Source: Nitrobacteraceae bacterium AZCC 1564
GTDB taxonomy: Bacteria; Pseudomonadota; Alphaproteobacteria; Rhizobiales; Xanthobacteraceae
Direction: 5' to 3'
NCBI GenBank assembly: GCA_036924835.1
Contig: JBAGRR010000001.1
Location: 4,479,001 to 4,543,000 of the forward strand
DNA length: 64,000 nucleotides
Shown here: positions 10,495 to 61,631 of the stretch, piece after piece
Numbering within the stretch: the first letter of the stretch is position 1
Layout: each line of letters starts with the position of its first letter
The notes under the pieces: generated by a model
Database searches by the model: none
What the model saw: the letters and a program-made list of their open reading frames with translations, nothing else
Told to the model about the DNA's origin: nothing
Made by a program: the position numbers and the translations under genes

Positions 10495-10573
10495 CTAGTG
10501 TGGCGTCTCGCAATTGCCGATCACTCTTGCAGCTCGTCTCTTATCGGCAATTGCGAGACGGAAGCCACACTAG
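10495..10573. repeat. Long hairpin element E1 (CTAG-ended family)
   Basis: Outer arms CTAGTGTGGC (10495-10504) and GCCACACTAG (10564-10573) and inner 17-bp arms (10505-10521 with 10543-10559, core GCAATTGCC) pair perfectly. Four unpaired bases GGAA (10560-10563) lie on the right side, and the loop is 21 nt. It is first member of a pair with E2, separated by a 13-nt spacer, and abuts the phosphatase start codon. Confidence 0.9.
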
Positions 10574-10586
10574 CTTTTTGATTCTG

Positions 10587-10661
10587 CTAGTGTCCTTTCA
10601 TCTCCGAATAACCGCGCGAGCGTGCTGCAAATGGGGCGGTTATTCGGAGATGGGACACTAG
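10587..10661. repeat. Long hairpin element E2 (CTAG-ended family)
   Basis: Outer arms CTAGTGTCC (10587-10595) and GGACACTAG (10653-10661); inner 17-bp arms 10599-10615 with 10636-10652 (CATCTCCGAATAACCGC). Three unpaired T (10596-10598) lie on the left arm, and the loop is 20 nt. Second member of the pair with E1. Confidence 0.9.
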
Positions 10662-14231: not shown

Positions 14232-15080
14232 TTATTCAGCCGGAGCGTCAGCGCTGGCAAGTTTGACCACGCGTGCGTCCGCATAGCTTGCCATCTCGCG
14301 CAGCCGCGGTTCGGGATGCTCTGACAGCACTTTTGCCATCTCGCGACAGAGCTCCACATGCGACTGGTCGATGGCCAAGCGAAGCCAGGGCAGGGCGTCG
14401 TCAACCATGCCCCGTTCGATGAAAACTTGAGCGTAGCTGTATTGTCCCCGGAAATCGCCCGCTTCAGCCGAGCGGCGAAACCATTGGATGGCCTCGGCCA
14501 AATCTTGCGTGCATCCCCAGCCGTTCTCGTAGCAGCGTCCGACCATGTTGAGGGATTTGACGTGCCCTTGCTCGACGGCCCTCACAAAGAGGCGAAATGC
14601 CTCATCCGCGTCCCGAGCAACGCCTTTACCTTCGAGCATGAGGCATCCGAGATTGAAGCGTGCCCAGTCAGACGACTTAGCCGCCGCCTCGCGATAGTGT
14701 TCGGCGGCTTTGCCAAAATCGACAGGCGTGCCCCAGCCTAGCTCATGGCATCGGCCCAGCAGGTTGATCGCATCGGCACGCTTGCTCAGTGCTGCGATGC
14801 CGAACCAGCGGAAGGCAGCCTCAGGATCACGGGCGGTGCCGATGCCGTCCAGCAGCATCTGCGCCCAATGAAGCTGCGCATCGATATTTCCGTAAGTCGC
14901 TGCCGCATAGATCCAGCGTGCAGCTTCAATCGGATCCTTCGAGAGAATCACGTCCCATTCTTCCTTGCTCAGGTTCTCAAGCTGGCTGAGGTAAATCGTC
15001 TCGTCAGAAATTTTTTTTGAGTGCTTTCGCTTTGCAAAAAGTTTTGAGGGCAAAGAAAGCAAGGATCGGATGGCGCGCAT
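14232..15080 (-). CDS. Sel1-repeat (tetratricopeptide-like) protein
   Basis: 282 residues. At least five Sel1-like repeats of about 36 residues run from roughly 55 to 255, with typical elements A-x-x-x-YGNIDAQLHWAQMLLDG, AINLLGRCHELGWGT, ARFNLGCLMLEGKGVARD, SLNMVGRCYENGWG and GQYSYAQVF. Such alpha-solenoids serve as protein-binding scaffolds in signalling or envelope processes. The N-terminus is basic and has no clear signal peptide, so it is probably cytoplasmic. The partner is unknown. Confidence 0.85.
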   Translation of the reverse strand: MRAIRSLLSLPSKLFAKRKHSKKISDETIYLSQLENLSKEEWDVILSKDPIEAARWIYAAATYGNIDAQLHWAQMLLDGIGTARDPEAAFRWFGIAALSKRADAINLLGRCHELGWGTPVDFGKAAEHYREAAAKSSDWARFNLGCLMLEGKGVARDADEAFRLFVRAVEQGHVKSLNMVGRCYENGWGCTQDLAEAIQWFRRSAEAGDFRGQYSYAQVFIERGMVDDALPWLRLAIDQSHVELCREMAKVLSEHPEPRLREMASYADARVVKLASADAPAE

Positions 15081-18823: not shown

Positions 18824-20937
18824 TGGGTGTTCAAAGCCTGCTCAGGCCAAAATCAATTGCCATTGTCGGAGCCTCGGAAAAGGTCGGCCCCGGATTCAAC
18901 GCGGTCAAAGCGCTCGAATTCGTGGGCTACGAAGGAGAGGTTTATCTCGTCAACCCGCGCTCTCCCGAGCTCTTCGGTCGGCGCACCTATGCGTCGCTGG
19001 ATGATATCCCGGGAAACGTTGACGCCATTTTCGTCGCGGTAGGCGCCGAGGCGGTCGTTGACGTTGCCAAGCAGGCGGTTCGCAAGGGCGCAGGCGCCAT
19101 GGCGATCCTGTCGAGCGGCTTCGGCGAGACGGAGGATGGCAAGGTGGCCCAGCAGGCTTTGGTTGATATTGCGGAAGCCAACGACATCGCTGTGTGCGGG
19201 CCGAACTGCCTTGGCTTGCTGAATTTCGTCGGACGTGCTGCGTTGTTCGGCACGTCCTTGCCTGATGACGTCAAGCGCGGCGGTGTTGCGGCGATTGTTC
19301 AAAGCGGCTCCGTGGGCATCGCGTTGCTCAACTCAGCCAGAGGCGTCGGCTTCAGCTATCTCATCACCACGGGGAACGAAGCCGTCACTTCTGCGGCTGA
19401 TTACATCGATGCGGTGATCGATGATCCGAACGTCACGACGATTCTGGTGTTCGCCGAGCAGATCAAGAAGCCGGCGGCATTCATGAAGGCGTTGCGGCGC
19501 GCCCGTGAGGTTGGCAAGCCCGTGATTGTTCTCAAGAGCGGCCGCTCGCAATCGGGCAAGGCGGCGGTCATGGCCCACACCGGCGCCATTGCAGGAAGCG
19601 ATGAGGCTTGTGATGCGGCGCTGCTTGCGGCTGGCGCGATGCAGGTTCATTCGATCGATGAATTGATCGAGACGGCACTGCTCGCTTCGAGCATCCGTGC
19701 GCGCCCGACGGCGACCCAGATTGGCGGTCTGTCTCTCTCAGGAGGTGAGATCGCGCTAGTGCTGGACGCTGCTGAAGAACTTGGCGTGGAGTTTGCGCCG
19801 CTCGGCTCGGCGAAGCCGAAGGTGAAAGAGCTGCTTCCGCCGTTCGCACACCTGTCCAATCCGTTGGACCTGACTTGGGCCGGGCTTTACGATCCGGCCG
19901 TCGCGCGGGATTGCGCACATGCGATCGCGTCGCAGACCGATGTGGGCATGCTTGTGTTGATCCAGGACGCACCAAGCCGGCTTGGTGTCCAGCAGGCGAC
20001 CCGCTATTCGAAATTGCTTGAAGCAGTTGCAAGCGGTGCCGCAGCGGCCAACACGCCGGTGGTGGCGTTGTCGAACGTATCGGACCAGCCTCATGCCGCA
20101 CTTCAGGAGGTCGCGGACAAGGTCGGAATTCCCTATCTGCGCGGGACACGAGTGGGGCTCTCCGCCATCTCTCACTACTTGAGATGGTCGGCGAACTCGG
20201 TGCGTGCACCCGCCGCGGATTCAGCGAGCGCGGCGCGCCTCGCCAAATCCGGTCTTGACCTGGTGCCGTCACACCGTTTGGCGGCCGAGCATGAAGCGCG
20301 CGACGTGCTCAAGAGTTACGGTGTCGAAGGACCGCGTGAAACTTTTGCGACGTCGGTGAATGAGGCTGTCGCGGCCGCGGAAGAGATCGGTTTCCCGATT
20401 GTGCTGAAGGGGCTTGTTGAGAACATGGTTCACAAGTCCGACGCCGGGCTTGTGAAGGTCGGTCTCACTTCGGCTGAGGCCGTCCGAAGCGCGGCTGAGG
20501 CGATGCTGGTGTCCGCCGCCAAGGTGGAAGGCAAATTTCTTGGCTTCCTGGTTCAACGGAAGGTCTCTTCGCTTGGCGAAATCTTTATCGGCGCAAGAGT
20601 CGATGCCGATTTCGGTCCGTTGATCGTCGTTGGTGCAGGCGGCGTTCAAGTCGAGCTCTATAAGGATGTGGCCATCCGGCTTGCGCCGATCGATGAAGAT
20701 GCGGCGAGAGAAGCCATCGCCTCGACAAAGGTTGCACAGCTTCTGGGTGGTTTTCGCGGAGCACCCGCGGGCGACATCCAGGCTGTGGCCCGGACAGTCA
20801 GTGCACTGTCGCGATTCATGGCGGACTTTTCCGATCGGATTCATGAGATCGAGATCAATCCGCTCGCTGTGCTGGAAAATGGAAAGGGTTGTGTTGCCCT
20901 GGACTGCGTGCTGATTCCGAAAGGGCACGCGCACTAG
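18823..20937 (+). CDS. ADP-forming acyl-CoA synthetase (acetate--CoA ligase family)
   Basis: About 704 residues in the order CoA-binding Rossmann domain (1-130, SIAIVGASEKVGPGFNAVKA), succinyl-CoA-synthetase-like domain (150-290, IVQSGSVGIALLNSA) with the phospho-His-like motif AHTGAIAGSDEA near residue 250, a linker domain, and a C-terminal ATP-grasp domain (from about 480: FPIVLKGLVENMVHKSDAGLVKVGL). It activates a carboxylic acid with CoA. It starts one base into the stop of the hydratase gene. Its TAG stop is formed by the CTAG end of repeat E3, so the last residues may differ from relatives. No acetyltransferase domain is fused. Confidence 0.9.
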   Translation: MGVQSLLRPKSIAIVGASEKVGPGFNAVKALEFVGYEGEVYLVNPRSPELFGRRTYASLDDIPGNVDAIFVAVGAEAVVDVAKQAVRKGAGAMAILSSGFGETEDGKVAQQALVDIAEANDIAVCGPNCLGLLNFVGRAALFGTSLPDDVKRGGVAAIVQSGSVGIALLNSARGVGFSYLITTGNEAVTSAADYIDAVIDDPNVTTILVFAEQIKKPAAFMKALRRAREVGKPVIVLKSGRSQSGKAAVMAHTGAIAGSDEACDAALLAAGAMQVHSIDELIETALLASSIRARPTATQIGGLSLSGGEIALVLDAAEELGVEFAPLGSAKPKVKELLPPFAHLSNPLDLTWAGLYDPAVARDCAHAIASQTDVGMLVLIQDAPSRLGVQQATRYSKLLEAVASGAAAANTPVVALSNVSDQPHAALQEVADKVGIPYLRGTRVGLSAISHYLRWSANSVRAPAADSASAARLAKSGLDLVPSHRLAAEHEARDVLKSYGVEGPRETFATSVNEAVAAAEEIGFPIVLKGLVENMVHKSDAGLVKVGLTSAEAVRSAAEAMLVSAAKVEGKFLGFLVQRKVSSLGEIFIGARVDADFGPLIVVGAGGVQVELYKDVAIRLAPIDEDAAREAIASTKVAQLLGGFRGAPAGDIQAVARTVSALSRFMADFSDRIHEIEINPLAVLENGKGCVALDCVLIPKGHAH

Positions 20938-20977
20938 AGCAAATTCGGTTCTGATTGAATCAGAACCGAAGCTCTAG
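20934..20977. repeat. Short-loop hairpin E3, left end of a GCTCTAG repeat
   Basis: CTAGAGC (20934-20940) pairs with GCTCTAG (20971-20977), and a 12-bp inner stem TTCGGTTCTGAT/ATCAGAACCGAA (20944-20955, 20959-20970) has a 3-nt loop. Downstream GCGTTTTC (20992-20999) is complementary to GAAAACGC at 21193-21200, which ends in GCTCTAG (21199-21205). The whole 20934-21205 unit resembles an interspersed repeat I recall from rhizobial genomes, here interrupted by E4 and E5. Confidence 0.8.
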
Positions 20978-21011
20978 ACTCTTGTTTTGACGCGTTTTCT
21001 TCACGGGAATG

Positions 21012-21086
21012 AGTGGAGCGGATTTGACGTTCGCACCCTGCTTACTGCGAGGTTGTAATGCGAACGTCAAATCCTAAAGCTCCACT
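21012..21086. repeat. Long hairpin element E4
   Basis: Outer arms AGTGGAGC (21012-21019) and GCTCCACT (21079-21086), inner 15-bp arms GGATTTGACGTTCGC (21020-21034) and 21060-21074, with TAAA unpaired on the right arm and a 25-nt loop. The terminal CT/AG of the family consensus is lost on both sides. Pairs with E5 across a 15-nt spacer. Confidence 0.87.
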
Positions 21087-21101
21087 TAAATCATAGATTT
21101 G

Positions 21102-21177
21102 CTAGTGGTCCTTTGATTTGAGCGTTCGCAACAATGCTTGCTGAGATGGGAGGCGAACGTTCAAATCGGACCACTAG
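21102..21177. repeat. Long hairpin element E5
   Basis: Outer arms CTAGTGGTCC (21102-21111) and GGACCACTAG (21168-21177), TTT bulge on the left (21112-21114), inner 15-bp arms 21115-21129 and 21153-21167 with one mismatch, and a 23-nt loop. It ends 42 nt before the GntR start codon. Confidence 0.9.
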
Positions 21178-21219
21178 GTAGCCACTTCGCTCGAAAACGC
21201 TCTAGACCGGACTTGAGGA

Positions 21220-29288: not shown

Positions 29289-30122
29289 ATGGCTGATCTG
29301 GCAATCATGGTCGCGCCGAACGGCGCTCGTAAAGGCCATGCTGACCACCCCAATCTTCCGATCACCATCGAAGCCACGGTGAAGGATGCGCTCGAATGCC
29401 AGGCCGCTGGTGCACAAGCCATTCACCTGCATGTGCGTGACGATCAGGGCAGGCACACACTCGATGCATCGCGTTACCTCGTGGCAACGGATGCGGTGCG
29501 GAAAGCGGCGGGGCCGGACTTTCCCGTTCAAATCACCACTGAAGCCGTGGGCATGTTCAAGCCGCATGAGCAAATTGCCGTCGTCAAGGCCGTGAAGCCA
29601 GAGGCTGTCAGCATCGCGACGAAGGAGTTGATTCCGGATGCGAGTGAGGAGGCTGCGGCTGCGGAGCTCTACCGCTGGGCTTACGATAACAAGATCGCCG
29701 TGCAGCACATCGTCTACGCGGCAAAGGAGTTCGATCATCTGCTCGATCTGATGAAGCGCGGCATTGTTCCGGGAGAACGCCATTCGGTCATCTTTCCGCT
29801 CGGACGCTATGCGAGCGATCAGGAAAGTGACCCGGCGGAACTCGTGCCGTTCGTCGCCAAGGTTCAGGACAGTGGCGGCGCGGCTCGGTTCGATTGGTGG
29901 GTCTGCGCGTTCGGGGCGTCGGAAACGTCGTCGCTAGTCGCTACCGCAGCACTCGGTGGGCATTGCCGCATCGGCTTTGAGAACAGCTTCATCAATTCCG
30001 ATGGCAGCCGGGCGGCAAGCAATGCGGAACGTATCAAGGACCTGTGCGCTGGGCTCCACGGCATCCGCCGGTCGCGTTCCTCGCGGGCTAATATCATGCG
30101 GGCGCTTGGCAAGCCTGACTAG
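29289..30122 (+). CDS. BKACE-family beta-keto acid cleavage enzyme (3-keto-5-aminohexanoate cleavage-like)
   Basis: 277 residues of the DUF849/BKACE TIM barrel. The zinc-type motif QAIHLHVRDDQGRHTLD lies near residue 44, then a conserved FPVQITTEAVGMF, a strand with AVSIATKEL, and a late GHCRIGFENSF. BKACE enzymes condense a beta-keto acid with acetyl-CoA, releasing acetoacetate and a new CoA ester. The acid is usually set by residues I cannot rank here. GGAGAC precedes the start. The TAG stop is provided by the CTAG end of repeat E6. Confidence 0.88.
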   Translation: MADLAIMVAPNGARKGHADHPNLPITIEATVKDALECQAAGAQAIHLHVRDDQGRHTLDASRYLVATDAVRKAAGPDFPVQITTEAVGMFKPHEQIAVVKAVKPEAVSIATKELIPDASEEAAAAELYRWAYDNKIAVQHIVYAAKEFDHLLDLMKRGIVPGERHSVIFPLGRYASDQESDPAELVPFVAKVQDSGGAARFDWWVCAFGASETSSLVATAALGGHCRIGFENSFINSDGSRAASNAERIKDLCAGLHGIRRSRSSRANIMRALGKPD

Positions 30123-30194
30123 TGGTTCGATTCTAACATTTGCTTCCCGTTTCCGCGGATGCCTTTGCAAATGTTAGAATCAAAGAACCACTAG
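30119..30194. repeat. Long hairpin element E6
   Basis: Outer arms CTAGTGGTTC (30119-30128) and GAACCACTAG (30185-30194), inner 15-bp arms GATTCTAACATTTGC (30129-30143) and 30167-30181, AAA bulge on the right (30182-30184), loop 23 nt. The first CTAG contains the stop codon of the BKACE gene. Confidence 0.92.
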
Positions 30195-30207
30195 CAAATA
30201 TAAGCTG

Positions 30208-30286
30208 CTAGTGGAGCTTAGGATTTGACATTCGCCGAATGAACCCGCTGCGAGCCCGGTAGCGAATGTCAAATCCGCTCCACTAG
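30208..30286. repeat. Long hairpin element E7
   Basis: Outer arms CTAGTGGAGC (30208-30217) and GCTCCACTAG (30277-30286), TTA bulge on the left (30218-30220), inner 15-bp arms GGATTTGACATTCGC (30221-30235) and 30262-30276, loop 26 nt. The stem closely matches E4. Pairs with E6 across a 13-nt spacer. Confidence 0.92.
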
Positions 30287-46294: not shown

Positions 46295-46368
46295 CCAGTG
46301 TCCCGAGTCCGAAGTTCGCCTCGTGTTGTGCCAGCTTCGTTGCGAACTTCGGAATCGAAGGACACTGG
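46295..46368. repeat. Long hairpin element E8 with covaried ends
   Basis: Outer arms CCAGTGTCC (46295-46303) and GGACACTGG (46360-46368), inner 16-bp arms 46304-46319 and 46342-46357 with one mismatch, AA bulge on the right, loop 22 nt. Both ends differ from the family CTAG by one base each (CCAG and CTGG) and still pair. Confidence 0.9.
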
Positions 46369-46380
46369 CAAATTGTTGAT

Positions 46381-46458
46381 CTAGTGTGGCTTGGGTTCAG
46401 AAGTCCGCATGCCAGACTCGCCGCACGAATGATGCGGACTTCTGAACTGCCACACTAG
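46381..46458. repeat. Long hairpin element E9
   Basis: Outer arms CTAGTGTGGC (46381-46390) and GCCACACTAG (46449-46458), inner 16-bp arms GTTCAGAAGTCCGCAT (46395-46410) and 46432-46447, TTGG unpaired on the left opposite one T, loop 21 nt. Nearly identical to E11, including the loop. Pairs with E8 across a 12-nt spacer. Confidence 0.92.
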
Positions 46459-52563: not shown

Positions 52564-52639
52564 CTAGTGTCCCGATTCCGAAGTTCGCATTATTTCGCTG
52601 CACTCTTCGTTTGCGAACTTCGGGATCGAAGGACACTAG
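52564..52639. repeat. Long hairpin element E10
   Basis: Outer arms CTAGTGTCC (52564-52572) and GGACACTAG (52631-52639), inner 16-bp arms CGATTCCGAAGTTCGC (52573-52588) and 52613-52628 with one G-T type mismatch, AA bulge on the right, loop 24 nt. Stem close to E8 and E12, loop different. Confidence 0.92.
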
Positions 52640-52651
52640 CAAGTTATTAAG

Positions 52652-52729
52652 CTAGTGTGGCTTTGGTTCAGAAGTCCGCATTCCAGACTCGCCGCACGAA
52701 TGATGCGGACTTCTGAACCGCCACACTAG
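52652..52729. repeat. Long hairpin element E11
   Basis: Outer arms CTAGTGTGGC (52652-52661) and GCCACACTAG (52720-52729), TTT bulge on the left, inner 17-bp arms 52665-52681 and 52703-52719, loop 21 nt. It ends directly before the ribosome site AAAGGA of the M20 gene, so it lies in the 5' leader or over its promoter. Nearly identical to E9. Confidence 0.93.
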
Positions 52730-61335: not shown

Positions 61336-61411
61336 CTAGTGTCCCGATTCCGAAGTTCGCACAGGCTTGCGGCTTGCTCGGATGCGAACTTCGGAATCAA
61401 AGGGACACTAG
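61336..61411. repeat. Long hairpin element E12
   Basis: Outer arms CTAGTGTCCC (61336-61345) and GGGACACTAG (61402-61411), inner 15-bp arms GATTCCGAAGTTCGC (61346-61360) and 61384-61398, AAA bulge on the right, loop 23 nt. Pairs with E13 across a 13-nt spacer. Confidence 0.93.
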
Positions 61412-61424
61412 CAAGCTTATGATT

Positions 61425-61502
61425 CTAGTGCCGCTTTTGGATTTGAAGTTCTTCATCGAGCTTGCGGCTTCACCCGGAAGAACTTCAAATCCGCGGCACT
61501 AG
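61425..61502. repeat. Long hairpin element E13
   Basis: Outer arms CTAGTGCCGC (61425-61434) and GCGGCACTAG (61493-61502), TTTT bulge on the left, inner 16-bp arms GGATTTGAAGTTCTTC (61439-61454) and 61477-61492, loop 22 nt. Its last CTAG is also the first CTAG of E14. Confidence 0.92.
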
Positions 61503-61573
61503 TGTGGTGGTTCAGAAGTTCGCCCGTTTTTTCCTGCGAGTCCTTCCAGCGAACTTCTGAACCACCACACTAG
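61499..61573. repeat. Long hairpin element E14, uninterrupted 25-bp arms
   Basis: Perfect 25-bp arms at 61499-61523 and 61549-61573 with no bulge, ends CTAGTGTGGTGG and CCACCACACTAG, loop 25 nt. It shares one CTAG with E13. A degenerate right half of another copy (GACTTTGGATTC...GGGGACACTAG) follows at about 61599-61622. Confidence 0.92.
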
Positions 61574-61631
61574 AACGGCACGCGCTGCCCGATGGGGCGG
61601 ACTTTGGATTCGGGGACACTAGCGGGAGTAG

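Follow-up and report, generated by a model that had tools for sequence, protein, structure and literature searches.

The IS630-derived MITEs RUP, Correia/NEMIS, and Nezha are small, non-autonomous, high-copy elements that take TA as their target and are bounded by simple terminal inverted repeats, and the Rhizobium-specific intergenic mosaic elements (RIME) follow a two-palindrome plan. In the accessible part of their description, RIME are intergenic repeats of rhizobia (PMC2573895). IS630-family insertions duplicate TA, as stated in the available passages of another source, whose reference list includes a title according to which IS630 prefers the TA in 5′-CTAG-3′ (PMC2170065). Elements of the REP/BIME/REPIN group, with their GTAG and CGTC repeats, occur as inverted hairpin pairs, often heterodimers, in many copies; in the excerpted account, REP stems measure 5–13 bp and one end is tagged (PMC3733652).

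The present study concerns a repeat family in the genome of Nitrobacteraceae bacterium AZCC 1564, a single contig of 5,994,409 bases, of which bases 4,479,001–4,543,000 (64 kb, referred to here as the window) were the starting point. Its members are about 168 bp long and consist of two hairpins with stems of about 25 bp, with CTAG at both ends. Like the REP group, they are inverted hairpin pairs in many copies, but they differ from the REPs as excerpted in stem length, in having CTAG at both ends, and in lacking a RAYT. They differ from RUP, Correia/NEMIS, and Nezha in that their two hairpins, with polarized bulges, are built from four end-like copies. The likeness to RIME is one of description, and no described family with the twin-hairpin plan was found in the literature searched. 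Because the ends of the element resemble those of known IS630-type insertion sequences (ISs), we consider it probable that the element is a non-autonomous MITE of the IS630/Tc1-mariner type that moves as a pair.

Results

Twin-Hairpin Elements in the Window

A preliminary description of the window had listed 14 hairpins, mostly in pairs, with outer arms, inner arms, loops of 20–26 nt, and short spacers. The hairpins lie where it placed them and are built as it stated, and six pairs were confirmed. All features in the window are given without strand. The element at 30119–30286 (hairpins E6–E7) is complete and scores 148.0 bits with a covariance model of the pair. Its first hairpin (30119–30194) has an outer arm of the GTTC type and an AAA bulge on the right arm; after a 13-nt spacer, the second (30208–30286) is of the GAGC type and has a TTA bulge on the left arm. 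The ORF upstream of this element ends with a stop codon inside the first CTAG. Also complete are E1–E2 at 10495–10661 (127.0 bits), E10–E11 at 52564–52729 (150.7 bits), E8–E9 at 46295–46458 (135.1 bits), where the CTAG foot of hairpin 1 is altered on both arms to CCAG/CTGG, and E12–E13 at 61336–61502 (153.4 bits), whose last CTAG is shared with E14. The element E4–E5 at 21010–21177 (139.3 bits) has a decayed outer foot and lies within another repeat (about 20934–21205).

The list needs correction at E3 and E14. E14 (61499–61573) is bounded by CTAG and has perfect arms of 25 bp, with no bulge and no intact partner; it is probably the remnant of a pair, because it is followed by a right half that has the other arm type and extends to the CTAG at 61619–61622. 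E3 (20934–20977) is not a member of the family and is part of a different repeat, in which a short-loop hairpin (CTAGAGC...GCTCTAG) is followed by a hairpin of GCGTTTTCTTCACGCGAA and ACTTCGCTCGAAAACGC. This second repeat occupies about 20934–21205 in the window and 14560–14663 in stretch L105. Since it encloses a twin-hairpin element at a matching position both in the window and at four other places of the sample (L108, L126, L127, and L138), the composite may have multiplied as such.

Polarity, Arm Types, and Copy Number

Sixty-one stretches of the host genome (1.264 Mb) were scanned with a hairpin finder that required an inner and an outer stem separated by a bulge, which could be on either side. 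The finder is biased toward bulged hairpins, with no preference as to side, and it missed one element (L162) that the covariance model reveals. It returned 240 family hairpins with CTAGTG-like feet, 193 of them clustered; beside most of the other 47, a decayed partner could be made out by eye. Among 95 neighbors 8–16 nt apart, the first hairpin is bulged on its right arm and the second on its left (RL) in 85, and the rest are LL (5), RR (4), or LR (1), with several of these exceptions falling within nested arrays. At loci from other genomes, 73 of 74 distinct neighbors are RL. The pairing and bulge polarity noted in the window thus hold in the larger sample, and copies are not mostly single.

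The bulges mostly read AAA/TAA or TTT/TTA. In the 85 RL pairs of the host, all of which fold as two hairpins, the net insertion in the inner arm (the bulge being inner by definition) is 2–4 nt in both hairpins, mostly 3, and in 84 of them neither outer arm has more than a single unpaired base. A separate scan of the host sample also found 11 long-arm hairpins free of bulges. The two hairpins of a pair differ in arm type in 170 of 172 distinct pairs. By eye, a GCNGC motif is seen in the loops, through which kissing loops might form. At two places (L063:6001–6075 in genome G022, and L105:11551–11624), single hairpins join the outer arm of one hairpin to that of the other, and these are probably deletions between repeated arms.

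Density is 176 hairpins/Mb in 58 stretches (1.204 Mb; L106, L121, and L125, picked for having matches, were set aside), which corresponds to about 1,055 hairpins per genome, or roughly 500 pairs. Across the 1.264 Mb, neither a gene between the hairpins of a pair nor an autonomous hairpin–gene–hairpin copy was seen.

Mobility of the Whole Pair

The two hairpins of a pair move together. Five arrays, found by eye in the first 464 kb, each contain a complete pair nested within another at a CTAG adjoining the spacer, and neighbors have a CTAG in common (L006:2816–3149, L009:18877–19203, L012:3167–3498, L015:5905–6239, and L016:14153–14484). Genome G036 contains near-identical elements with different flanks, and no half elements appear among the matches listed for it (at least 150 matches scored).

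Orthologous sites lacking the element, which the preliminary description had named as a sign of mobility, were found, and they retain one CTAG-like site. Relatives of a protein encoded in the window lie at 10 loci, eight of them in Afipia, which points to this genus. The site of the element at 30119–30286 is empty in all eight Afipia loci compared, where the stop codon reads CTAG in five, CTAA in two, and TTAG in one; two further loci, L028 and L029, differ at this site. In a 20-kb region with six elements in the host (L106), the covariance model finds a single element across 20 relatives of the same genus (L162:17932–18096, possibly the counterpart of e6). At e1 of this region, two relatives have a single CTAG, which is the stop of a gene; at e5, one relative has CTCG between colinear flanks; at e2, the flanks of a relative are colinear around TTGA; and at e3, e4, and e6, same-genus loci show no alignment at the junction. 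Insertion at CTAG adds the element plus 4 bp, a gain in which duplication of TA and duplication of CTAG look alike inside CTAG.

Distribution

Searched with the covariance model of the pair (E 0.001), 35 of 61 genomes contain the element: the host, all 28 others of its genus, 6 of 8 from the same family, and 0 of 24 from other families. A wider draw at E 1e-6 gave matches in 51 of 297 Hyphomicrobiales genomes; these represent 27 of 123 genera and, by hand count, 17 families. Plasmids of Martelella, Aminobacter, Bradyrhizobium, and Rhizobium carry matches of 72–74% identity, and a search of phage records with two elements gave no match. Pattern scans of viral contigs returned 31 and 5 contigs. 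In all five viral-classed contigs of the second scan (L196–L200), the covariance model matches elements or parts of them, and a hairpin scan shows the twin-hairpin build in L196 and L199; these contigs may be host fragments.

Resemblance to the Ends of IS630-Family Insertion Sequences

The terminal 32 bp at the right end of an element in genome G182 are 93.8% identical, at an E value of only 9e-4, to the corresponding end of IS630-family ISs carried by rhizobial plasmids, with CTAG in register. The ISs are those of Rhizobium jaguaris, Sinorhizobium meliloti, and Agrobacterium vitis, and four of the six among the matches listed carry an IS630-family transposase label. Three transposases tested reach 231–285 bits, where NCBIfam sets its IS630 cut-off at 100. 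When the best-matching ends were chosen on TA alone, CTAG was present at both ends in 14 of 17 IS630 loci; L245 and L246 have it at both ends, and L247 has it at the right end only.

The outer arms as a group are much closer to IS ends than the controls are. Compared with 27 ends of 14 IS630-family ISs (17 loci less L258, L263, and L288), the mean best match over 24 positions is 16.95 for Y arms (n = 119) and 14.03 for Z arms (n = 104), against 9.34 for other CTAG sites (n = 824, excluding those followed by TG) and 9.58 and 9.61 for shuffled arms; as the arms are interrelated, these counts are not independent. Y arms favor the right end of the IS by 92 to 14, whereas Z arms lean to it slightly, by 44 to 27 (means 13.8 and 13.6); L251 was also left out of this comparison, and six pairs entered it twice; the tally of arm types given above is without repeats. 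The best end matches, in genomes G117 (L214; 23 of 24) and G182 (L210; 22 of 24), exceed those of the host Y arms, which reach at most 20 of 24, and the closest ones come from other genera.

IS630-family ISs such as that of L245 and the ISRj1-like IS of L281 are thus like the element in ends that start with CTAGT, in outer-arm sequence, and in having CTAG at both ends. Unlike the element, they are 1.1–1.2 kb long and encode a transposase, and inspection of five of them (L245–L247, L250, and L253) revealed no hairpin at either end, which leaves the doubling of the element's ends unexplained. Moreover, both ends of L245-type ISs have the same outer bases, whereas the two ends of the element differ there. 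Genome G175 has 10 nearly full-length copies of the L245-type transposase, and all six copies fetched (L250, L261, L269, L273, L276, and L278) are near-identical 1146-bp IS630-family ISs bounded by CTAG, apparently a recent burst. The same genome also has the small elements, which differ from these ISs in the outer 10 bp.

Relatives of the L245 transposase are found in only 11 of 44 element-positive genomes. The host genome yielded no IS630 transposase whose ends match those of the element; there is one DDE_3 fragment and no match to the L245 protein. A MITE population that is old does not strictly need its transposase in the same genome.

Discussion

How such a structure might move can be sketched from its ends and its empty sites. 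We infer that an IS630-family transposase, supplied in trans, would treat the outermost arm on each side as a terminal inverted repeat, excise the element by cut and paste, and insert it at the TA in CTAG, so that duplication of TA rather than of CTAG would give C-TA-[G...C]-TA-G. Each end would have been doubled as an inverted copy, producing the two hairpins. The inner copies, on the spacer side, are those with the A/T-rich insertion of 2–4 nt, from which the outer copies and the IS630 ends are free, and by shifting the spacing this insertion would disable the inner copies as cutting ends and keep the pair together. Because cutting at the inner CTAGs would split off single hairpins, the polarized insertion is most readily interpreted as locking the inner ends. 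Such a lock would account for the polarity, the symmetry about the spacer, and the travel of the pair as a whole; it leaves the unlike end types and the origin of the doubling unaccounted for.

The preliminary description had offered three identities for the hairpins, a non-autonomous mobile element, a protein-binding site, or a paired RNA structure. The first of these is supported by the nested pairs, the empty sites, the near-identical copies with different flanks, and the IS630-like ends, and nothing found calls for either of the others, which might still be secondary effects. That the hairpins are a functional RNA or DNA signal under host selection, such as a bidirectional terminator, an RNA stabilizer, or a protein-binding site, is very improbable. 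The hairpins are strong, 81 of the 85 pairs have no overlap of more than 40 bases with a long ORF, and 15 ends coincide with the stop of a flanking ORF, as would suit such a signal. However, their contexts, judged from ORFs and not curated genes (52 tandem, 16 convergent, 11 divergent, and 2 at an edge), are much like the 525, 137, and 134, respectively, of adjacent ORFs generally, the orthologous sites of relatives lack the element, and no Rfam family exceeds its gathering cut-off in the window. A REPIN- or BIME-like identity, in which a RAYT (Y1 HUH) transposase would mobilize the element by way of single-stranded hairpins that have extrahelical bases, would explain the inverted hairpin pairs, bulges, intergenic sites, high copy number, and separate folding (85 of 85 host RL pairs), all REP-dimer-like features in the parts of the REP account available (PMC3733652). 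Such a partner had been suggested earlier as possible support for mobility, but the host has no match to the Y1 transposase domain PF01797 at E 0.001 or even at E 10 (a threshold applied to six genomes). PF01797 is likewise absent from 32 of 37 genomes with the family, although the same search is positive in Escherichia coli and Caulobacter. The 10 Y1 loci inspected (L091–L100; 8 distinct places, with about 1.5 kb on each side) have no hairpins of the twin-hairpin family, the element has CTAG rather than GTAG, and at both ends, and its orientation to replication is 49 to 36 (p 0.19). This reading thus seems scarcely credible, and a Y1 partner was rejected, the few Y1 matches adjoining GTAG REPs or lacking family hairpins. 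Genome G031 has RAYT-like genes beside GTAG-type REPs (L093 and L097) as well as many twin-hairpin elements, that is, two repeat systems in one genome.

A third alternative keeps the element mobile but makes the hairpin itself, as a cruciform or as single-stranded DNA, the substrate of an unrecognized transposase or integrase, with the likeness to IS630 reflecting ancestry only. In a hand-chosen alignment of 27 pairs from the first sample, RNAalifold gives 47 consensus base pairs, 34 of them with changes on both sides, the outer 3–4 bp vary between classes with pairing kept, and among close hairpins the loops have diverged by 0.12 per site and the stems by about 0.03 (our own arithmetic), all of which would suit such a substrate. 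It would also sit well with the lack of a recurrent companion gene around the elements in 83 partly overlapping loci, each taken with 1.5–8 kb of flank. All-against-all comparisons of ORFs, over these loci and over 40 loci (mostly of low-copy genomes) with the host sample, revealed no recurrent transposase-like gene. ORF clusters were few and broad, in addition to shared neighborhoods, and the largest, in the 83-locus set, includes annotated ABC-transporter ATPases. An rve-type partner (IS3/IS481) was rejected, there being one sub-threshold remnant in the host. Against this alternative, stem changes in close hairpins comprise 321 on a single arm and 97 double changes over 8,249 columns, and the 11 long-arm hairpins noted above are bulge-free. 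Repair of palindromes or a common binding specificity could keep the arms alike without selection for folding, and we regard this alternative as unlikely, if less so than the two just discussed. Covariation does not by itself show that an RNA is involved, because one protein may bind both arms or imperfect palindromes may be repaired.

Collectively, our analyses indicate that the twin-hairpin elements are a real, widespread mobile family, most likely of the IS630 type and non-autonomous, with an unusual build, which reaches a high copy number in a 6-Mb genome where searches for three transposase families yielded two remnants only. They also carry a caution, in that strong covariation of base pairs in an intergenic repeat can stem from transposon ends and does not require an RNA. 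A more far-reaching form of the MITE reading, which we put forward tentatively and hold to be rather doubtful, is that the four end-like copies form two hairpins in which the inner copies are locked by the spacing change of 2–4 nt and the ends are obligately of unlike type, the transposase complex or an extruded cruciform pairing unlike structured ends. If this is true, then obligate pairing of unlike structured ends would be a new way to define the ends of a transposon, and one used across an order. The family also provides a natural test of how a Tc1/mariner end becomes active or silent, through the insertion of 2–4 nt, and of the reason for ends of unlike type.
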